Virus record (IMG/VR): IMGVR_UViG_3300031999_000071
Span: 1 to 41,159 of that record
Strand: one strand, 5' to 3'
Source of the DNA: a virus
Length of the DNA: 41,159 nucleotides
The notes beneath the pieces were generated by a model, which was not told the DNA's origin, searched no databases, and saw nothing but the letters and a program-made list of their open reading frames with translations. The position numbers and the translations under genes were made by a program. Positions 4,467-41,159 of the stretch are shown here, piece after piece; the stretch's first letter is position 1; the number at the start of each line of letters is the position of its first letter.

Positions 4467-7400
4467 ATGGCGGTCACCTTCAGAGGTGCCTATAACAGCG
4501 GGGGCGCAGCCAACCCCACGACCGCGCTCGACCTGTCGCTTTCGGGATGCAACGCGGCGGCGGGCGACCTCGCCATCATCGTCATCTACTCCCGTGCCTC
4601 CGCGAAGACGTGGGCGGTCGCCGCCAAGGGCGGCGGCACCGCGCCCGCAGCCATCAGCGGGCAGGACGTGAACAACGTGACCTACGGCCGCCTCGCCGTC
4701 TACCAAGCCACGCTCTCGGCCCAAGACATCACCAACGGCCATATCGGCACGACCGGCACGTTTGGCAGCATCACGAACGGCACCACGGGCTTCATCGTCG
4801 CCGTCTTCCGTGGTCACAACAGCGTGCGCGGCGGCACCACCCCGGCGACGGGCACGGGCGACCCCAACCCGCCGAACTACTCCTCGACCTCGGGCGACTG
4901 CCTCATCGCCGTCGGCGGCGGCATGGACCAGAACGACGGCATCACCGCCTCGGCGAACTTCACCCTCAACGCGAGCGCGGCATGGTCGTCCTCCTCGGGC
5001 ACCGATGCTTGGTCGGCGCTCGAATACGACCTCGACGGGGGCACCGGCAGCGGGGTCGACCCGGCGGTCATGGCGACCTCGACCGACTCGGCGTGGTACA
5101 CGACCGTCATCGGTATCAGTGGGGACGTGCCGCAGACAGCCACGCCCACCGGCATCGCTAGCGCGCAGGCCGTCGGCACGCCGGTAGTCAAGAAGCAGCA
5201 TCAGGAGGCCGCGCCCACGGGTATCGCCAGCGCCGAGGCGGTCGGCGCGGTCACGCTCGACCTCGCCAACACCATCACCCCGAACGGCTGGGCGCAGCTC
5301 TACCCCGGCGGCGATGCCGTCATCACGTGGGGCCACTGTGACACCGACGACGACGCCTCGGTGCTGGGGGCGGTCGGTGGCGGCCTCATGTACCTCTCTT
5401 TCGACGGCGGCGCGACTTGGGACACCTACGGCGTCGGCCCCGATACGGTCAAGAACCGCTGCGCAGTCGCCATCGACGCCGACGGCTCGGTCATCATCCA
5501 GACGGAGAACGGCGTGGCCTCTACGCTGTCCACCAACAGCGGCTCCAGTTGGGCGGCGACCGGCCCTTCCATCAGCTACCCCTACCACGCCTCTGTCGAC
5601 GATGACGGCTCGGTGCTGTGGGTCGTCAACTACGGCTACCGCTGCCACCTGTCCGTCAACGGCGGCACCGATTGGACGGAGCCGCGCCCCAACGGCGACG
5701 TGGACGTGTCGTGGCAAGACCAAGCCTGCGACAGCGACGGCTCCGTGCTCATCGCGGCGGGCGACTTCGACCCCAACCGCGGCATCTATGTCTCGGTGAA
5801 CAGCGGGGCTGGCTGGACGCGCTACCGGCCCGGCATCTCCACAGTGGGCTACTACTCGGTCGCCTGCGACGGCACGGGCGCGGTGATTCTCGCCTGCGAG
5901 GCGGCTCTCCCCGGCAAGTGCTGGTTGTCCACGGACACGGGGGCTACGTGGGTGGAGGCCAAGCCCGCCGGGGAAACGACCAAGAACTGGAGGCGCGTCG
6001 CCGTCAGCAAGGACGGCAGCACGCTCATCGCCGTGGTCAGCAGCGGGCGCGTCTACCTGTCCCTCAACCGAGGGGGGACGTGGACCGAGCAGCAGCCCGC
6101 AGGCGACAGCAACCAGTCGTGGGACGGCGCGGCCATCAGCGCCGACGGCAAGTTCGCCCTCGTGCACCACAACCGCCTCTACGCCTACGGCTACCACCGC
6201 TTCGTCCACTATCCGCTCGGCATCCAGAGCGCGGAGGCGATGGGCTCCGCGACCGCGACGCGCGCAGAGATAGAGCATCGGACGCTGACGCCAGCGGGCA
6301 TCGCCTCAGCGGAAGCCATCGGCACGGCGGCCCCCAAGTACAACCAGATACCCGCGCCCAGCGGCATCGCCAGCGCCGAGGCCGTGGGAGCCGCCACCGC
6401 GACCAAGACCTCGAACATCATCATCACGACCGCAAGCTGGGCTGAGATTCGCCCAGACGCGGGCGACTACGACCGTTACTGGCGCGCCCTCGGGGCGAGC
6501 GCCGACGGCAAATACTTCATCGCCGGAAACTGGTCGACGACCGGCGTCAACAACAGCGGGCGCATCTATCGCTCGACCGACTACGGCGCGACGTGGGCCG
6601 AGATAGACGCCCCCATCGTCGACTACGACGGCTGGGACGCGGCGGCTAGCGACAGCGACGGCTCACACCAACTCATCGGTGTCGGCTGGAACGACGTCGG
6701 TTACCTCGACCGCACGACGAACGGCGGCTCAAGCTGGGCTTCGGTCACGCCTTACGCGGGCTCCTACCCGAACTGGGTCGGCGCGGCCATCAGCGCCGAC
6801 GGTGCGGTCATGCTCGTCGGTGGTGGAGTGGAGGGCGACAATAGCGGTCGCCTCTACCGCTCGACGAACTCGGGCACGGACTGGAGTGAGCTGCAACCCG
6901 CCGGGGCCATCAACCGCATCTGGCGCGCCCTCTCGATGAGCAGCGACGGCGAGGTCATGCTGGCGGGGGCCAACAATGGTCGCCTTTGGCTCTCGACCAA
7001 TGGCGGTGACAACTGGACTGAGGCCACCGCCTACAACTCGTTCGAGGACCCGTGGTACTGCTCCTCCATGAGCGCCGACGGCGCGGTCATGCTCGCGGGC
7101 CGCAGCCAGCGCCTCTACCACTCCATCGACGGCGGCGCGAACTGGCACGACGAGCAGCCCGACGGCGACAACAACCGCCACTGGCATTCCTGCTGGGTCA
7201 GCCCCGACGGCACGAAGATGATGGCCGCCGAGGTCTCCAGTGGGGGCTCGAATACGGGGCGGCTCTGGTACCACAACGGCACCTCGTGGGCCCAGATGTA
7301 CCCGGCGGGCGACGTGGCGAAGTCGTGGGCGCTCGTCGTAGGGTCTAGCACTGGGGCCACCATCGCTGCCGTCGGCTATCAGGCCACCGGCCGCCTCTAC

Positions 7401-20584: not shown

Positions 20585-20721
20585 TCTTTCGAGCCGTCGG
20601 CGCTGGTCGGGTGGTTCCTCCCGGCGCTGGCACGAGGCCGTCCCTGTCTGGCTGGCGGGGGCGGCCTCACCACCTCTGCATCCTAGAACACCGCCGATTG
20701 TTGAGAACATGTTAAGGTGAG

Positions 20722-20749
20722 TTGAACGCGGTGGAAATAGGTTTAGAGT
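20722..20749 (+). promoter_or_regulatory. Early promoter P1, upstream of the amidoligase gene
   Basis: TTGAAC, a 16-base spacer and TAGAGT form a sigma-70-type promoter in one of the few AT-rich stretches of the window. The sequence after the -10 (GGTTTAGAGTGGTGG) closely matches the promoter at 23713. The 130 bases between the previous stop and this site show nothing else I can name, apart from a repeated CGGCGCTGG. Confidence 0.65.
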
Positions 20750-20766
20750 GGTGGGGAGAAGTGGAA

Positions 20767-20785
20767 TAACCCCGGTACGGGGTTA
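20767..20785 (+). promoter_or_regulatory. 5'-leader hairpin of P1
   Basis: A perfect 8-bp stem, TAACCCCG / CGGGGTTA, closes a GTA loop about 11 bases after the expected transcription start. It is followed by ACCCGCCCAGCCAGCC and an AAGGAGGAACCAC ribosome site. The same order occurs at 23759, so it is a repeated design, probably for mRNA protection. Confidence 0.55.
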
Positions 20786-20820
20786 ACCCGCCCAGCCAGC
20801 CAGCTCCAAGGAGGAACCAC

Positions 20821-29387: not shown

Positions 29388-29582
29388 ATGCACGACTGGC
29401 AGCTCGACGAGGAGCTGAGCCAACAGCTCTGGCGGGCGCGGCGCGAGGCCGAACGGTCTGCACGTCGCGCCCGCAAGGCGCGCCGCAAGCAACGCATCTT
29501 CAGCGTCGCGGTCTTCGCCGTCTGCTGCTTCGCGGCGTTCTACCTGCTCGTCCATGTGGGAGCGGCCCTGCTGCTCCACTAG
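29388..29582 (+). CDS. Small single-pass membrane protein
   Basis: The 64-residue protein has a basic N-terminal half (RRARKARRKQR) followed by a C-terminal membrane helix (IFSVAVFAVCCFAAFYLLVH). A positive-inside rule predicts a cytoplasmic N-terminus. It uses the GAAGGAGGGCATCC ribosome site. Function unknown. The long frame that overlaps it upstream is not its true start. Confidence 0.6.
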   Translation: MHDWQLDEELSQQLWRARREAERSARRARKARRKQRIFSVAVFAVCCFAAFYLLVHVGAALLLH

Positions 29583-29610
29583 AACACCACCAACCGTCAG
29601 GAGGGCATCC

Positions 29611-30507
29611 ATGACACCCCAAGCCAAGACGCGGCCCGCAGCCGACCCCATCACCGTCGGCGAGCACGACGCCTCGCTCAACATCGAGCAGCGCCTGCTC
29701 AACGTGATGGCCGCGCTGAGCTACGTCCAGAAGACCGGCGTCACCGCCAAGGAGGCGGGGGGCTACTCGTTCGTCACCCACGACGCCGTGACCGCTGCCG
29801 TGCGCCCCTTGCTGGTCAAGAACGGCGTCCTCTGCCTGCCGACCATCGTCCAGCACGAGCGCGAGGGCAACCAGACGACGCTGCTCGTCGACCTCGCCTT
29901 CATCAACACCGACAACCCCGAGGACCGCGCCGTCGTGCGCTCGGTCGGGTACGGCATCGACAAGCAGGACAAGGGGCCGGGCAAGGCGATGAGCTACGCC
30001 GTCAAGTACGGCCTCCTCAAGGCGTTCTCACTGGAGACCGGCGACGACGTGGAGATGAGCGGCCTCGACCGCGACGAGCCCTACCGCAGCCCCGCGCCCG
30101 CAGGGGCTGCCAGCGCCGCGCCCCACCACACGCCGGGCCGCCCGGCGCTGGCCAAGTTCTGGTCGGTGGCGCGCGGCCAGAAGGTGCCCGAGGAGGTCAT
30201 CCGCCTGTGGTTCAAGCGCAACCTCGGGCTGGAGTCGACCAAGGACGCCGACGACGGCCAACTGACAGAGGCGACCTTCTGGGCGCAAGCCTTCGTGGGC
30301 CGCGCCAAGAAGCTCGGCGACGCCACCATGGTCATGGGCTTCAGCGCCCAGCAGACTGCGGAGGAGGCCTCGCGCCAGTTCGACGGCGTGACCGCCCTCG
30401 GCGAACTCACCCTGAAGGAGTGGGACGCGCTCATCGCGTGGGCTGAGACCAACGCCAACGCCACGCTCGACCAAGAGGTCGCCGCTGACGACGACCTGCC
30501 GTTCTGA
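29611..30507 (+). CDS. erf: Erf-family single-strand annealing protein
   Basis: The 298-residue recombinase anneals complementary single strands during phage recombination or replication. The Erf core is about residues 20-150: NIEQRLLNVMAALSYVQKTG, YSFVTHDAVTAAVRPLLVKN and the hallmark GPGKAMSYAVKYGLLKAF followed by LETGDDVE. A linker and helical C-terminal region end in DDDLPF, which closely resembles the acidic tip of bacterial SSB proteins. No partner exonuclease of the lambda Exo type is seen, but a PD-(D/E)XK-like gene lies 1.4 kb downstream. ATG with the GGAGGGCATCC site. Confidence 0.88.
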   Translation: MTPQAKTRPAADPITVGEHDASLNIEQRLLNVMAALSYVQKTGVTAKEAGGYSFVTHDAVTAAVRPLLVKNGVLCLPTIVQHEREGNQTTLLVDLAFINTDNPEDRAVVRSVGYGIDKQDKGPGKAMSYAVKYGLLKAFSLETGDDVEMSGLDRDEPYRSPAPAGAASAAPHHTPGRPALAKFWSVARGQKVPEEVIRLWFKRNLGLESTKDADDGQLTEATFWAQAFVGRAKKLGDATMVMGFSAQQTAEEASRQFDGVTALGELTLKEWDALIAWAETNANATLDQEVAADDDLPF

Positions 30508-32395: not shown

Positions 32396-33316
32396 ATGGG
32401 GGCATCCACAGACTGGCAGAAGATTGACCCCGACCTGCGCAGCCACCCCGCGTTCGCCCACCTCACGGCCCTGCTGGGCCTCTCCGCCATGGAGACGCAC
32501 GGCCTCCTCGCGGGCCTCTGGGCGATGGCCTACCGGCAGGCCGAGGACGGTGACCTCTCGCGCTTCAAGCCGGGGGCCGTCGCTGCCGCCGTCGGCTACG
32601 CAGGCAACGCCCGCGAGATGCTGGCTGCGCTGACCGAGGCGGGCTTCCTCGATGACGGTGACGGCAAGCTCGTCATCCACGACTGGGAGGACTGGGGCGG
32701 GGCGCTCTTCGCCTACCGTGAACGCGACCGCGAGTACCAGCGCGTCCGTTACCACCTGAACAAGCGAAAGTCTCATTCGAGAACCGACGAGTCTCGGCGG
32801 ACCTCGGCCGAGAATCCGAGAATCTCGGTCGTTCTCGGTGATAGAGAGAGAGAGAGTAAGAGCCCTTTAACCCCAGAGCGCGAAGACGCGCTCGGGGCTG
32901 TGGAAACTGTGGATAACTCCTTCGAGGACTTCTGGCGTCACTACCCGAACAAGCAGGGCAAAGTGCCTGCCCAGCGCACGTGGAAACACCTCAAGCTCGC
33001 CGACCGCACCGCTGCCATCGGCATCGCCATGGCCATGACGCAGGCGGTCGAGCGCGGCTACCGTGACCGCGCGGTGTGCCCCCACGGCAGCACCTTCCTC
33101 AACCAACGCCGCTGGGAGGAGTGGGAGGACGGGCCGCCCCCGGGCTACGGGCCCGTCGGCCGCGAAGGGCCCGTAGCGCCGACCACCGAAGAGGCGCGGC
33201 CCACGTGCTTCGTGTGCAAGGGCACGATGAGCGCAGACGATGTGCTGGACGGGGTGTACACGACAGGCGGTTGGCGACACGAGCGCTGCCCCGAGGGGGG
33301 GAACGACCATGACTGA
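32396..33316 (+). CDS. Replication initiator / replisome organiser
   Basis: The 306-residue protein has an N-terminal domain like phage replisome organisers (DWQKIDPDLRSHPAF, AYRQAEDGDLSRF, AALTEAGFLDDGDGKLVIHD), a basic linker, and a C-terminal module NSFEDFWRHYPNKQGKVPAQ followed by RTWKHLKL, found in helicase-loading phage proteins. The tail CFVCKG ... HERC may bind zinc. It would bind the origin and recruit the host helicase, which fits the lack of phage helicase and polymerase. Its coding DNA carries the likely origin. Confidence 0.72.
   Translation: MGASTDWQKIDPDLRSHPAFAHLTALLGLSAMETHGLLAGLWAMAYRQAEDGDLSRFKPGAVAAAVGYAGNAREMLAALTEAGFLDDGDGKLVIHDWEDWGGALFAYRERDREYQRVRYHLNKRKSHSRTDESRRTSAENPRISVVLGDRERESKSPLTPEREDALGAVETVDNSFEDFWRHYPNKQGKVPAQRTWKHLKLADRTAAIGIAMAMTQAVERGYRDRAVCPHGSTFLNQRRWEEWEDGPPPGYGPVGREGPVAPTTEEARPTCFVCKGTMSADDVLDGVYTTGGWRHERCPEGGNDHD
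32792..32916 (+). other. Putative replication origin inside the initiator gene
   Basis: TCTCGG or its complement occurs repeatedly: direct copies at 32792, 32823 and 32833, inverted CCGAGAA at 32808 and 32816, and the palindromes CTCGGCCGAG (32804) and CCGAGA-A-TCTCGG (32816). A purine tract (GAGAGAGAGAGAG) and CTTTAA follow, then TGTGGAAAC (32899) and TGTGGATAA (32908), the latter a perfect DnaA box on the minus strand. Origins inside initiator genes are known from lambda-like phages. Confidence 0.6.
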
Positions 33317-34604: not shown

Positions 34605-34801
34605 GGGAGCATGACCTCGTGACTTACAGCGAGCGCCACCACGAGTGGCTGGTGAGCGTGGGCAAGTGGCCCAAGCACCTCCCCCGCAGGGCCTTGCGCG
34701 GCACCGTCACCGGCCTCCTCGACGACGGCGTGGTGCGCGTCCTTTGGGAGGACGGTGCGCTGCTCCATCACTTCTCTGACAACCTCGCCGTGCTACCATG
34801 A
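34601..34801 (+). CDS. Small SH3-like protein
   Basis: The 66-residue protein (HDLVTYSERHHEWLVSVGKW, GTVTGLLDDGVVRVLWEDG) suggests a small beta barrel. It is coupled in ATGA to the previous gene and ends 17 bases before the ParB/DpdA-like gene start. Confidence 0.57.
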   Translation: MREHDLVTYSERHHEWLVSVGKWPKHLPRRALRGTVTGLLDDGVVRVLWEDGALLHHFSDNLAVLP

Positions 34802-34818
34802 CGCCAGAAGGAGGCGAG

Positions 34819-36162
34819 ATGCCGAAGGCGCGAGACGCGCTCAAAGTGGAGTGGTGGGCCACCGACCGACCGATACCTTACGCCGCGAACGCCCGCGTGC
34901 TCTCGGACGTGGCGGTGGGCAAGGTGGCGGCCTCCATCAAGGAGTACGGCTGGCGGCAGCCCATCGTCGTCGACGAGGAGGGCGTCATCCTCGCCGGTCA
35001 CACGCGCTTGCAGGCCGCCCAGAAGCTGCGGCTCGCCGAGGTGCCGGTGCACGTCGCTGCCGGGCTCACGAAGGCGCAGGCTAAGGCTTTCCGCCTCATG
35101 GACAACCGCTCCGCGCAGGAGGCCACGTGGGACGTGCCCCTCCTGCAGACTGAGTTCGAGGCGCTGCGCGAGCTGGGCATCGACCTCGCCCTCACGGGTT
35201 TCGACAACGCCGACTTCGAGCGCTTCGACATCGAGGGGGCCATCCTCCAAGGAGATGTCGAGCTAGGGGGGGCGGGCAAGCCTGAGCGCCGCGCCCTGCC
35301 GCTGGACGTCATCTTCACCATGGACTCCATCGTCTACTACCACCTCGCCGCTGCCAGTGGCGTGCTCATCGGTATCCAGTCCAAGCCCGGCTGGCTGCCG
35401 GAGGGACACCGCGCCGTCAAGAAGCCGGACTGGATGACCATCTCCTTCATCGACAACGACTTCAAGGACTACGACCACGGCAGGCACAAGGAGATTGTCA
35501 GCATCTACCGCCCCAAGTACTGCACGGTGCGCGACTACCTGAGCCCGCTCCAGTGCGAGGACGCGGGCATCGCCTACTACGACCTCGACAGGATTCTCGG
35601 CTGGGCGGAGGAGCTACAGCCCTACGTCGAGCACGTCATCGTCATCCCCAAGGTGGACGTGGTGAAGGAGGTTCCCGAGGAGTACGTGCTGGGCTACTCC
35701 GTGCCCTCCTCCTACGGCCAGACGCCGCTGCCGCCGAGCGCCTTCGTGGGCCGCCGCGTGCATCTCCTCGGGGGGAGCTGGAGGAGCCAGCTGCGCTACC
35801 TCACCTACCTCGGCGACGACGTTGTCGCGCTCGACTTCAACCACGCCGCCAACATCGCCCAGTGGGGCCAGTTCACGACCAGAGGAGGCAAATCGAGGAG
35901 CCTGCGCGACATCGGTGTCGACGTACAGTCCCTGTCCTTCGACCACGCCGCGAAGATAGCCGAGGAGGGGCTTTTCTACGTGCGCGGCGGGGCTGAGGCC
36001 TCGCTCGAGGAGGCGCACGTCGACGTCGCCAACGTCATCCCCTCCGCCATCACCCTGAGCCTCGGCGCGATACTCGCCGACCTCCGCGAACTGTTCGGTC
36101 AGGAACCACCCTCGACCGTGCCCACGTCCCCGTACTCCCTCACAGGAGGAGTGACATCGTGA
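34819..36162 (+). CDS. dpdA: ParB-like / DpdA-like fusion, predicted 7-deazaguanine DNA transglycosylase
   Basis: The 447-residue protein has an N-terminal ParB-like domain (about 8-125; VLSDVAVGKVAASIKEYGWR, VILAGHTRLQAAQKL, MDNRSA) and a C-terminal TIM-barrel-like part (about 150-440) resembling phage DpdA proteins related to tRNA-guanine transglycosylase. Landmarks are KPDWMTISFIDNDF, YRPKYCTVRDYLSPLQCEDA, VIVIPKVDV, LGYSVPSSYGQTPLP and GRRVHLLGGSWRSQLRYL. DpdA swaps guanine in DNA for a 7-deazaguanine base. A TGT-type CxC zinc cluster is not seen. Residues 339-406 hold a 34-residue tandem repeat. ATG 34819 is chosen for AAGGAGG 5 bases upstream; ATG 34798 is the alternative. The transporter gene downstream overlaps by GTGA. 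Confidence 0.72.
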   Translation: MPKARDALKVEWWATDRPIPYAANARVLSDVAVGKVAASIKEYGWRQPIVVDEEGVILAGHTRLQAAQKLRLAEVPVHVAAGLTKAQAKAFRLMDNRSAQEATWDVPLLQTEFEALRELGIDLALTGFDNADFERFDIEGAILQGDVELGGAGKPERRALPLDVIFTMDSIVYYHLAAASGVLIGIQSKPGWLPEGHRAVKKPDWMTISFIDNDFKDYDHGRHKEIVSIYRPKYCTVRDYLSPLQCEDAGIAYYDLDRILGWAEELQPYVEHVIVIPKVDVVKEVPEEYVLGYSVPSSYGQTPLPPSAFVGRRVHLLGGSWRSQLRYLTYLGDDVVALDFNHAANIAQWGQFTTRGGKSRSLRDIGVDVQSLSFDHAAKIAEEGLFYVRGGAEASLEEAHVDVANVIPSAITLSLGAILADLRELFGQEPPSTVPTSPYSLTGGVTS

Positions 36163-36935
36163 GCCCGACCAAGACAGACCTCACCCACGGCACGACGCTC
36201 TACTCGGACAAGCTCCAGCTGCGCACCGACTGGCGCTACCTGACGCTCATCACCGCCGCCTTCGTGGCCGTGCTGATGCTGAGCAACACCCTCGCCGTCA
36301 AAGTCCTCCAGCTCGGCCCCTTCCTCATGGACGGGGGGACGGTGCTGTTCCCCATCTCCTACATCTTCGGTGACGTGCTCACTGAGGTCTACGGCTTCCG
36401 CCTCTCGCGGCGCGTCATCTGGACGGGCTTCGCGGCCATCGCCTTCATGGCCTTCGCCTACTGGCTGGTGGGCGTCCTCCCCGCCTCTTCCGAGTGGGGC
36501 ATGGACTCCTCCTACGCCGCCATCCTCGGGCAGGTGCCGCGTATCGTGCTGGCCTCCCTCTGCGGCTTCTTCTGCGGTGAGTTCGTGAACAGCACGCTGC
36601 TCTCGCGCATGAAGGTCTGGACGCAGGGCAAGGCCCTGTGGAGCCGCACCATCAGCTCCACCGTGGTCGGTGAGTTCGTGGACTCGTTCGTCTTCGTGTT
36701 CATCGCCTTCAGCGGCGTGCTGCCGCGCCGCGACGTGCTCATCATGGCCTTCTCCAACTGGGGCTTCAAGACGCTCTACGAGGTGCTCTTCACGCCCGTG
36801 ACCTACTGGGTCGTGAACACCCTCAAGCGTAAGGAGCGCGTCAACATGTTCGACACCGACGTGACCTACACCCCGTTCCGCCTCAACCTCGATGGCGTGA
36901 AGGAGCACAACGCCGCCGAGGACGGTCAGTTCTAG
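36159..36935 (+). CDS. yhhQ: YhhQ-family queuosine-precursor transporter
   Basis: This 258-residue integral membrane protein has about six or seven hydrophobic segments and the family signature: YLTLITAAFVAVLMLSNTLA, then TVLFPISYIFGDVLTEVYG (the FPxxYxxxDxxxExYG motif), later FCGEFVNSTLLSRMK, SRTISSTVVGEFVDSFVFVF and NWGFKTLYEVLFTPVTYWVV. YhhQ-type (VUT/QPTR) proteins import preQ0/preQ1-type bases. GTG start overlaps the DpdA-like stop (GTGA) with AGGAGGA 8 bases upstream, so the two are co-translated. No precursor synthesis genes are in the window. Confidence 0.88.
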   Translation: MSPTKTDLTHGTTLYSDKLQLRTDWRYLTLITAAFVAVLMLSNTLAVKVLQLGPFLMDGGTVLFPISYIFGDVLTEVYGFRLSRRVIWTGFAAIAFMAFAYWLVGVLPASSEWGMDSSYAAILGQVPRIVLASLCGFFCGEFVNSTLLSRMKVWTQGKALWSRTISSTVVGEFVDSFVFVFIAFSGVLPRRDVLIMAFSNWGFKTLYEVLFTPVTYWVVNTLKRKERVNMFDTDVTYTPFRLNLDGVKEHNAAEDGQF

Positions 36936-37036: not shown

Positions 37037-37522
37037 ATGGCCGGTGGTAGACCGACCAAGCTCGACGCCGAGCGTCAGGAGCGTATCGTCCTCCTCCTGC
37101 GCCAAGGCAACTACGTCGAGACGGCCGCCGCGCTGGCCGGTATCGACAAGACCACGCTCTACGACTGGCTGAGGCGCGGCATGAGGGCGCGCGACCTCGC
37201 CGCTGCCGACAAGGAGGTGGAGGAGCGCGAGCTGCCCTACGCCGAGTTCTCCCACGCCATTGAAAGGGCGCTGGCCGAGGGCGAAGCCTTCCACCTCTCC
37301 ATCATCGCCAAGGCCGCTTCCGAGGGCGTCTGGCAGGCATCTGCTTGGACGCTCGAACGTCGCTATCCAGACAGGTACGGTCGCCGTGAACGCATCGAGC
37401 ACGCAGGCTCCATCGACACCGGCCCAGAGTTCGCCCAATCCGCACGCGAACGCCTCACTCGCATCCTTGACGGCATCGCTGCCCGAGGAGAGACGCCAGA
37501 GCTTCCTAGCGGGACTGAGTGA
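37037..37522 (+). CDS. terS: Terminase small subunit
   Basis: The 161-residue protein opens with AGGRPTKLDAERQERIVLLL and an HTH (ETAAALAGIDKTTLYDWLRR), followed by helices for oligomerisation and AAKAASEGVWQASAWTLERR with YPDRYGRRE, typical of TerS. It recognises phage DNA for packaging. It lacks a strong ribosome site and lies directly after motif copy D. TerL overlaps its 3' end. Confidence 0.82.
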   Translation: MAGGRPTKLDAERQERIVLLLRQGNYVETAAALAGIDKTTLYDWLRRGMRARDLAAADKEVEERELPYAEFSHAIERALAEGEAFHLSIIAKAASEGVWQASAWTLERRYPDRYGRRERIEHAGSIDTGPEFAQSARERLTRILDGIAARGETPELPSGTE

Positions 37523-38765
37523 GGCCGAGGCCGAGGCCCTCTGCTACGACTGGCGCTACTGGGCGCGGCCTGACCAGCTTCAACCGGAGGGGGACTGGTC
37601 GTTCTGGCTGCTGATGGCGGGCCGGGGGGCGGGCAAGACGCGCGCCGGGGCGGAGTGGGTTCAAGGTGAGGTGAGGAGTGGCCGCCGGGGACGCCTCGGG
37701 CTGGTGGGCGCGACCGCTGCCGACGTGCGCGACGTGATGGTGGAGGGCGACTCCGGCCTGCTCGCCATCGCCGACCCTGAGTTCAGGCCGCGCTACCAGT
37801 CCTCCGTGCGCCGCCTCACGTGGCCCAACGGTGCCGTCGCCACTACCTACTCGGCCGACGAGCCCGAGCGCCTGCGCGGCCCGCAGCATGACGGCATCTG
37901 GGCCGATGAGGTGGGGACGTGGCGCTACCCCGCCGCATGGGACAACATGCTCTTCGGCCTGCGCGTGGGCGCAGACCCGCGCGCCGTGGTGACCACCACG
38001 CCGAGGCCGACCAAGCTCGTCCGCGCCATCCTCAACAACCCGCACACCGTGGTCACCCGCGCCACCACCTACGACAACCTCGCCTTCCTCGCGCCCTCCT
38101 TCTTCGAGCAGATAGTGCGCCCCTACGAGGGCACCCGCCTCGGCCGCCAAGAGCTGCAAGGTGAGCTGCTGGAAGACGTCGAGGGGGCCTTGTGGAGGAG
38201 AGATGACATCGACGAGCTGCGCGTCAGCTCCGCCCCTGACCTGCAGAGCGTCGTGGTCGCCATCGACCCGGCGGTGACGAGTGGTGAGGGCTCCGACGAG
38301 ACGGGCATCATCGTCGCCGGTTCCGACGACCGCGACCCGACGCACGGCTACGTGCTCGCCGACCTCTCGGGGCGCTACCGCCCTGAGGAGTGGAGCCGCA
38401 TCGCCATCGAGGCCTACCGCAAGTACCACGCCGACAGAATCATCGGCGAGGCCAACAACGGCGGCGACCTCATCGAGTCCGTGCTGCGCACCATCGACCC
38501 CAACATCTCCTACCGCAAGGTGCACGCCAGCCGGGGCAAGTTCGTGCGCGCCGAGCCGGTGAGTACGCTCTACGAGAAGCGCCGCGTCCATCACGTCGGC
38601 GTGTTCCCGCGCCTTGAGGACCAGATGGCGAACTTCACCGCTGACATCGACCGTAAGACCATGGGCAGCCCCGACAGAGTCGACGCCCTCGTCTGGGCCT
38701 TCCACTCCATGATGGTGGGCCGCAGGGGCTTCACCAAGCCACCTGCCACAAGCCGCAAGGCGTAG
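37467..38765 (+). CDS. terL: Terminase large subunit
   Basis: The ATPase/nuclease that packages DNA. The ATPase has Walker A AGRGAGKTRAGAEW and Walker B GIWADEV, followed by VVTTTPRPTKL. The nuclease domain has VVVAIDPAVTSGEGSDETG, YHADRIIGEANNGGDLIES and the C-terminal SPDRVDALVWAF. TTG 37467 gives the usual short leader before WRYWARPDQ; GTG 37386 is an alternative. About 432 residues, within the normal range. A promoter for the portal gene overlaps its 3' end. Confidence 0.9.
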   Translation: MTASLPEERRQSFLAGLSEAEAEALCYDWRYWARPDQLQPEGDWSFWLLMAGRGAGKTRAGAEWVQGEVRSGRRGRLGLVGATAADVRDVMVEGDSGLLAIADPEFRPRYQSSVRRLTWPNGAVATTYSADEPERLRGPQHDGIWADEVGTWRYPAAWDNMLFGLRVGADPRAVVTTTPRPTKLVRAILNNPHTVVTRATTYDNLAFLAPSFFEQIVRPYEGTRLGRQELQGELLEDVEGALWRRDDIDELRVSSAPDLQSVVVAIDPAVTSGEGSDETGIIVAGSDDRDPTHGYVLADLSGRYRPEEWSRIAIEAYRKYHADRIIGEANNGGDLIESVLRTIDPNISYRKVHASRGKFVRAEPVSTLYEKRRVHHVGVFPRLEDQMANFTADIDRKTMGSPDRVDALVWAFHSMMVGRRGFTKPPATSRKA

Positions 38766-40223: not shown

Positions 40224-40415
40224 ATGCCGCTGCAAGCCTGCTACACCAGTGACGGCCAGCCGGGCTTCCGGTGGGGCCAGAGTGGCAAGTGCTACCCCTA
40301 CACCAAGGGCGACTCCGCGAGCATGGCGGCCGCCAAGCGCAAGGCCATGCAGCAAGCCGTGGCCATGAGCTACGCGCAGAAGCGTGCCGGGGGGACGCCG
40401 GAGGTGCCGGTCTGA
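40224..40415 (+). CDS. Small conserved head-region protein
   Basis: The 63-residue protein (MPLQACYTSDGQPGFRWGQS, GKCYPYTKGD, AAKRKAMQQAVAMSY) is a recognisable small phage protein between portal and minor head genes, with two Cys. Function unknown. Its stop overlaps the next ATG (TGATG). Confidence 0.65.
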   Translation: MPLQACYTSDGQPGFRWGQSGKCYPYTKGDSASMAAAKRKAMQQAVAMSYAQKRAGGTPEVPV

Positions 40416-40513
40416 TGCTGGGCGTGACGGGCCTCACCGTCGTCTTCGCCGTGGTCACCCTCGTCGTGAGCGTCTGCATCTTCATCCTCATGGCGCTCTA
40501 CTGGGACGACTGA
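40415..40513 (+). CDS. Thirty-two-residue membrane peptide in the head operon
   Basis: MLGVTGLTVVFAVVTLVVSV starts a single hydrophobic helix ending ALYWDD. It overlaps both neighbours in ATGA, which supports translation. A membrane peptide between portal and minor head genes is unusual. Function unknown. Confidence 0.58.
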   Translation: MLGVTGLTVVFAVVTLVVSVCIFILMALYWDD

Positions 40514-41159
40514 TGGCGACGCCTGAGGTGGTCACGCAGGCGGTGCAGTGGCGCGAGCGTGTGCAGACCCGCGAACTCTTCGCCTCCCGCGCCATGGCCG
40601 ACCGCTACCTGCACATGACGCAGACCATGATGGCCGACTTCGAGGCGCTCGCCGAGCAGGTGACCCGCATGGCGGCCGCAGGTGAGGAGGTGGCCCTCGG
40701 CAAGCTCTACCAGCTTGAGCGCTACCAGCGCATGGCCATCAAGATGGACGCCGAGCTACAGGACTTCCGTGCCTACGCCGAGGGCATCATCCGTGAGGAG
40801 CAGAGGTATCTCCTCACCGCCGGGGCGCAGGCCGCCAAGGACGAGCTGCGGGCAGCAGGAGGGGGCGCGCCGGGAGCGTGGACTGAGCTGGGCGGTACCA
40901 CCGCCGCCATCGAGGGCTTCCCTACCGCCGCCATCGAGCAGATGGTCGGCCAGACCAGCGGCGGCCCGCTACAGGAACTCCTCATCAAGGCGACCGACAG
41001 CGACGCCGCCAGCCGCGACATCGGCCGCCTCCTCTCGTCGAGCGTCGGCCTCGGCCACAACGCCGAGGTCATCGCCGCCCAGATGGCGGCCCAGTTCGGC
41101 CTGCCCCTCGCCCGAGCCCTGTGCATCGCCCGCACCGAGACCAACAGCGCCTACCGCGC
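40513..41159 (+). CDS. Mu F-like minor head protein, N-terminal part (3' partial)
   Basis: The 215 residues shown include the helical N-terminal region (MADRYLHMTQTMMADFEALA, YQLERYQRMAIKMDAELQDF) and the Mu F landmark LARALCIARTETNSAYR. The gene runs off the window. Usually a Cys-rich C-terminal region follows ARTExxxAYR. The frame at the edge is compatible with the metallopeptidase fragment at base 2, but the expected connecting region is missing. Confidence 0.75.
   Translation, partial: MATPEVVTQAVQWRERVQTRELFASRAMADRYLHMTQTMMADFEALAEQVTRMAAAGEEVALGKLYQLERYQRMAIKMDAELQDFRAYAEGIIREEQRYLLTAGAQAAKDELRAAGGGAPGAWTELGGTTAAIEGFPTAAIEQMVGQTSGGPLQELLIKATDSDAASRDIGRLLSSSVGLGHNAEVIAAQMAAQFGLPLARALCIARTETNSAYR

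Follow-up and report, generated by a model that had tools for sequence, protein, structure and literature searches.

A putative replication origin in the linker-coding DNA of a phage initiator gene and repeat-dense linkers in its initiator family

An origin of replication inside the gene of its own initiator is already a known layout. In lambda and the Stx phages, where this is established, the origin lies in the middle of the initiator gene O and consists of iterons followed by an unwinding region (PMC7466680, PMC5043065). Equally established is oriL of phage SPP1, which is located within gene 38 (PMC6316719), and for ORF20 of 80alpha an intragenic origin has been proposed (PMC5499656). Plasmids of the pSK41 type, which belong to the RepA_N group, carry their Rep boxes centrally in the rep gene, where they are bound by the N-terminal domain (PMC5703833). 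The phage described here probably adds a further member to this layout, and its initiator family shows linker features of its own, namely ACCNN arrays and iteron classes that may track a basic helix.

The initiator gene and its surroundings

The DNA considered here, referred to as the window, is a complete virus record from IMG/VR (41,159 bases, 68% GC). It belongs to a tailed phage, the terminase genes of which lie at 37037–38765. No match to the window came from a near-DNA search of 50,697 phage records or from the plasmid collection. Scanning IMG/VR with one protein at a time (the initiator, the terminase and the ParB-DUF6610 protein) revealed no relatives.

The protein of 306 amino acids encoded at 32396–33316 matches the profile phrog_9474 ("replication initiation protein") over residues 6–244 (E = 2.9e-40) and phrog_270 over residues 115–245 (E = 3.4e-11). 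Weaker matches are to other replication-initiation and primosomal PHROGs, and neither Pfam (E ≤ 0.1) nor NCBIfam has a match to the protein. It begins with a conserved N-terminal part that extends to the motif IHDW (residues 94–97), followed by a basic stretch, an unconserved linker and a C-terminal part with the motif FW..YPNK.GK...GSTFLNQRRWE.W. The putative origin lies in the DNA that codes for the linker. The C-terminal coding part contains an inverted repeat of its own, which is GC-rich (33144–33177; 15-nt arms, 93% complementary, 4 nt apart).

Upstream of the initiator gene there is an Erf recombinase gene (29554–30507), with HNH-like and DUF559 genes in between. Three annotated relatives, Lagaffe, Shimadzu and Harrison, likewise have an Erf gene upstream. 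Several relatives have a DnaC-like gene immediately downstream of the initiator gene, whereas scanning 20 proteins of the window brought no helicase loader to light. Downstream in the window follow a ParB N-terminal domain fused to DUF6610 (34798–36162; DUF6610 Pfam E = 4e-36) and, just before the terminase genes, a Vut_1/YhhQ-like transporter (36159–36935; E = 1e-51), the substrate of which is perhaps a queuosine precursor. The frame at 40384–41157 is open at the right end of the record, and at the left end there is a small ORF (38–370) with an HEFGH metalloprotease-like motif; the two may be parts of a single head-protein gene that is split at the ends of the record, and if so, this would agree with circular permutation of the genome. 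The intergenic region 20660–20820, which immediately precedes an amidoligase-like gene, contains the record's GC minimum (0.40 at 20696–20745) and an inverted repeat (AACCCCG-GTA-CGGGGTT), and is probably regulatory. The segment 20669–20800 was considered as second origin and rejected, as it has no iterons and looks like an intergenic regulatory region.

Signals in the linker-coding DNA

The DNA from 32777 to about 32916, in the linker-coding part of the initiator gene, is very probably the replication origin of the phage, and the best reading of its kind is an intragenic origin with the layout of lambda O and SPP1 gp38. The features concerned are the following (+ and − denote the strand).

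32396–33316, +, replication initiator gene, 306 amino acids, with matches to phrog_9474 and phrog_270
32777–32807, +, iteron unit 1, TCGAGAACCGACGAGTCTCGGCGGACCTCGG, identical to the following 31 bases at 21 of 31 positions
32808–32838, +, iteron unit 2, CCGAGAATCCGAGAATCTCGGTCGTTCTCGG, including the 13-bp palindrome CCGAGA-A-TCTCGG at 32816–32828
32803–32812, no strand, 10-bp palindrome CTCGGCCGAG across the junction of the iteron units, as read from the sequence
32840–32872, +, putative unwinding element, purine tract GATAGAGAGAGAGAGAGTAAGAG and then CCTTTAACC
32871–32897, +, hairpin with a stem of 4 + 7 bp, one bulged A and the loop AAGA
32899–32907, −, DnaA-box-like site GTTTCCACA with two mismatches to TTATCCACA, possibly by chance
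32908–32916, −, exact E. coli-type DnaA box TTATCCACA, single copy in the record

TCTCGG or its complement CCGAGA occurs at 32792, 32808, 32816, 32823 and 32833, which amounts to 5 copies within 47 bases (32792–32838), out of 36 copies in the whole 41-kb record. A sequence-only reading made before this analysis had named five or more such elements in about 125 coding bases together with two palindromes, and all of these are present. The elements thus stand as named, but the array begins earlier, at 32777, and is better read as two tandem units of 31 bp, the similarity of which is the strongest in the record among periods of 20–60 that are not multiples of 3 and the third strongest overall. An equal density of the hexamer elsewhere in the genome, which that reading regarded as speaking against an origin, is not found. 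In 100 dinucleotide-preserving shuffles the densest cluster has 3 copies per 125 bases. It should be noted that the hexamer was picked after inspection, and hence two less biased tests were added. When the linker peptide is recoded synonymously with the phage's own codon use, at least 5 copies of TCTCGG/CCGAGA arise in 3 of 100,000 trials, and any hexamer at all occurs at least 5 times in 18 of 20,000 recodings. With one mismatch allowed, CCGAGAA/TTCTCGG has 6 sites per 70 bp here and 3 at the next best place of the record. The five hexamer copies begin at codon positions 1, 2, 1, 2 and 3, and thus occur in all three reading frames and in both orientations. Since copies in different frames and orientations encode different residues (SR, AEN, PR, ISV and VLG, respectively), the repetition is one of DNA and not of protein.

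To the right of the iterons lies a region of low stability, as in lambda O and SPP1 gp38: the stretch 32821–32870 has the second lowest GC of all 50-base stretches of the record (0.46 versus 0.68 overall). The GA-purine tract and the CTTTAA described in the earlier reading are both found, the former as a run of 14 bases at 32843–32856 and the latter at 32865, within CCTTTAACC (32864–32872). CTTTAA is the record's single copy, and TTAAAG does not occur in the record. The adjoining hairpin, which had been overlooked, has a stability of −14.7 kcal/mol as DNA (z = −4.25), and none of 200 shuffles is equally stable. Beyond it, TGTGGAAAC-TGTGGATAA in tandem at 32899 and 32908 form the predicted pair of DnaA-box-like sites; the second is perfect, as stated, while the upstream site differs from TTATCCACA at two positions. 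TGTGGATAA/TTATCCACA is present nowhere else in the record and arose in 81 of 100,000 synonymous recodings of the linker peptide. Compared by eye with a DnaA-trio, the GA tract has a period of 2 rather than 3, and the hairpin is situated between the GA tract and the boxes. Cumulative GC skew, which had been suggested as a check, has no inflection at the array. This says little because the genes identified are all on one strand.

Codon use in the same segment is atypical. The 51 codons at 32762 have a codon score of −1.29, which is the worst among the annotated genes scored (mean −0.31, sd 0.16), the next distinct low being −0.99. The TTA codon within 32840–32872 is one of only 3 among 925 Leu codons. 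Codon preference thus appears to be given up in the linker for a DNA signal.

Linkers of the initiator family

The closest relative, L010, was recovered from IMG/VR by an alignment-based scan, and a scan with the window and L010 gave back L010 alone. Its initiator is 60% identical over the alignment, with very similar N-terminal parts and surroundings of the C-terminal motif; its linker is shorter and cannot be aligned with that of the window. The L010 linker is the stretch of lowest GC in its 6.9-kb locus, both over 50 and over 100 bases, and the minimum of the codon score falls within it (−1.41 versus a mean of −0.35, sd 0.20). Repeats above the threshold of the finder are not found in its iteron part; short palindromes and near-repeats are seen by eye alone (TGACGTCA; ACTCGTG-TCAG-CACGAGT; GACATCA twice), and they have no obvious sequence in common with the iterons of the window. 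After these repeats the order is that of the window, namely AGTAAGAG, CCTTTAACC and then a hairpin in the same place (8-bp stem, 4-base loop), and the codons CCT TTA ACC are identical in both, even though TTA is so rare in the phage of the window. An origin acting in cis would be expected to show a conserved layout together with turnover of the iterons, and the pattern of the two loci fits this. The comparison also shows a coding region the sequence of which appears to be dictated by an underlying DNA signal.

Alignment-based scans yielded 80 viral and 53 genomic loci. With the annotated phages included, 105 loci have an IHDW-type anchor, of which 75 are non-redundant, the window among them. 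As the search patterns sat in the N-terminal domain, the loci were selected independently of their linker DNA. Over these 75 loci repeat density peaks about 150 bp past IHDW, where the mean z reaches +3.7; within 200 bp it has dropped again, and at a distance from the peak it is close to 0. In 73% of the loci the linker ranks in the top 5% of its locus for repeats. Linker repeats exceed the synonymous null (p < 0.01) in 51 of 75 loci, as against 1 of 75 for an N-terminal-domain control of equal length, and off-frame or opposite-strand copies alone suffice in 43. Enriched in linkers are the lags 5, 10, 11, 15, 20, 22 and 25, most of which are not multiples of 3. Palindromic iterons recur, with half-sites such as GCGTGAC, GCGTTAC, GGATGTCC and CACGTGC.

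In 33 of 75 linkers the iterons are followed by an array of at least 4 ACCNN pentamers, which elsewhere in these loci is found once. The arrays have 4–11 units and are strand-biased (e.g., L005, L019, L023, L026, L029, L048, L052, L128). The window and L010 have none, and in the place of the array there is the GA/CCTTTAACC tract. (ACCNN)6 does not serve as unique marker of the family: among 120 matches listed, 15 lie downstream of family motifs by an automatic motif test. Of 41 few-copy (ACCNN)6 arrays in long frames among the IMG/VR matches listed, about 26 belong, as judged by eye, to initiator-like proteins, including types outside the phrog_9474 family; the other arrays are unrelated repeats. 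A GC minimum was likewise rejected as family-wide marker of the origin (median percentile 0.48), low GC marking the window and L010 only. Searches of the open-access literature turned up no survey of phrog_9474-family linkers and nothing on the pentamer array, which is weak evidence of novelty because subscription journals lie outside this coverage.

The C-terminal half of the initiator appears to be exchangeable among family members. A DnaB_2 (DnaD-type) C-terminal domain is found in 21 of 55 aligned members (best E = 3.7e-14) and is missing from the window protein, and the family profile matches the DnaD-domain structure 2zc2 with E = 2e-5. The Pfam model of replication protein O matches neither the window protein nor any of the 55 aligned members; PF09681 (Phage_rep_org_N, SPP1 gp38) does not match the window protein and matches 2 of the 55 relatives weakly (best E = 4e-4).

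The class of the iteron seems to track the basic stretch that comes after IHDW (residues ~108–130 of the initiator, window 32717–32785, and the equivalent in L010–L138). For example, RMR is found in 4 of 4 phages with CACGTGC and in 0 of 15 phages with GCGTGAC. By per-column mutual information, columns 14–32 after IHDW have the top mean z (2.7) among segments with a defined mean, with the proviso that single N-terminal columns score higher, that 31 of 75 sequences are classed and that phylogeny is uncontrolled. This is a lead with thin statistics. A broader generalization is conceivable, though less likely than not: many initiators of the broad winged-helix/DnaD-like class, from phages of distant hosts, would have a two-part intragenic origin in which palindromic iterons, with a half-site class that goes with the short basic helix after IHDW, are followed by an ACCNN array. 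The pairs would be ERKR[KR]SR with GCGTGAC, R.RV..[YW]R-like with GCGTTAC and RMR with CACGTGC, and the strand-biased array of period 5 would be a single-strand loading element with a role comparable to that of the DnaA-trio. If this holds, the origin sequence could be predicted from the protein, and the window, in which REYQRVRYHLNKRK is paired with CCGAGAA, would be an outlier in the code.

Alternative readings, proposed mechanism and known systems

It is scarcely credible any longer that the repeats only reflect a charged protein linker of low complexity and have no role at the level of DNA. The linker is indeed unconserved and rich in Ser, Arg and Glu, and some relatives contain peptide repeats (e.g., PNLTIPNQT), but the unlike residues encoded by the hexamers in three frames, their rarity among recodings and, in the relatives, the off-frame and opposite-strand repeats and the enrichment of lags 5 and 11 largely refute it. 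Highly improbable is also that the palindromes are another kind of binding site, be it an autoregulatory operator or a centromere recognised by the ParB-domain protein (34798–36162). Such a protein is encoded about 2 kb downstream, and in L010, too, there is a downstream gene (ORF 5717–6334) that is ParB-like as judged by its sequence. Lagaffe, Shimadzu, Harrison and psageK9, however, have repeat-bearing linkers and no ParB gene nearby, the ParB domain of the window is fused to DUF6610 and is not a typical partition protein, and the gene that harbours the repeats is that of the initiator, where they adjoin a melting tract and a hairpin.

The role of host DnaA has to be weighed separately. The exact TTATCCACA, with a box-like site in tandem, directly adjoins the putative melting region, and the linker of L070 also has two such sites (TGTGGACAA and TGTGGATAA). 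Nevertheless, an origin strictly dependent on host DnaA via the tandem boxes at 32899–32916 is unlikely: a DnaA box is found in only 2 of 75 linkers (the window and L070) and is absent from the 6.9 kb of L010, box density is not clearly raised in linkers (0.083 per kb versus 0.050 per kb elsewhere in the loci), and the probability that an exact box turns up by chance anywhere in the record is about 0.05 (back-of-envelope), a neighbour with 2 mismatches being weak evidence. The participation of host DnaA suggested in the sequence-only reading thus lacks conservation, and DnaA boxes are rejected as family-wide feature. Binding of host DnaA as an optional extra of this particular phage is conceivable, if somewhat doubtful. 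Assistance by DnaA is possible in this phage; the design common to the family does not include it.

The preferred reading is thus an origin acting in cis inside the initiator gene, as the earlier reading had proposed. It is well supported by the identity of the initiator, the repeats at DNA level, which are found in the window and family-wide as in the layout of lambda O and SPP1 gp38, the atypical codons, the anatomy of L010 and the family-wide repeat peak. Against it count the lack of an inflection in GC skew, the failure to recognise a helicase loader among the 20 proteins scanned, the missing ACCNN array and, in L010, an iteron part that has no repeats above the threshold of the finder. 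The course of initiation proposed here is an inference as regards binding, melting, helicase loading and direction. The N-terminal half of the initiator and the basic stretch after IHDW would bind the CCGAGAA/TTCTCGG half-sites, probably as dimers, and on the two 31-bp iterons the bound initiator would build a wrapped complex, the stress of which would open the purine/TTAA tract on its right. The hairpin and the C-terminal domain might then help to bring in the host helicase, whether or not a loader takes part. The linker peptide would perhaps be little more than a tether, its sequence being set by the DNA signals. This reading places a likely origin in a phage without a close sequenced relative other than L010, and it offers a simple test elsewhere, namely a rare-codon, repeat-dense linker in an initiator gene. 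The family-wide pattern would allow origin calls in many uncultured phages and makes the iteron-recognition code testable.

Among the known systems, pSK41 resembles the window in that a central peptide is encoded by the ori; it differs in being a plasmid with an initiator of another protein family, the window having no RepA_N match. SPP1 gene 38 and 80alpha ORF20 share with the window that the gene of the origin-binding protein carries both the repeats and the unwinding element. SPP1, however, has its own loader and DnaB-type helicase (gp39, gp40) and a second origin, whereas the window yielded no loader among the 20 proteins scanned and no second array. Like oriLambda, the putative origin of the window is placed centrally in the initiator gene and has dyad-symmetric iterons with an easily melted region after them, and like lambda O the initiator would have an N-terminal DNA-binding and a C-terminal helicase-recruiting part. 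Lambda has four inverted repeats of 19 bp and the window two units of 31 bp with different sequences, the melting region is a 40-bp A+T tract in lambda and a GA tract with TTTAA in the window, and the window differs further in the exact DnaA box beside it. The window initiator is not placed in the O or gp38 protein families because it has no match to their Pfam models. Known systems also include the phrog_9474 phages (Faecalibacterium phage Lagaffe, phage nd4, Paenibacillus phage Harrison and L010–L142). Many of them have iterons of the GCGTGAC/GCGTTAC type and an ACCNN array, neither of which is present in the window, but they share with it a homologous N-terminal part, an Erf gene upstream (in Harrison also HNH) and repeats in the linker DNA at the same place.
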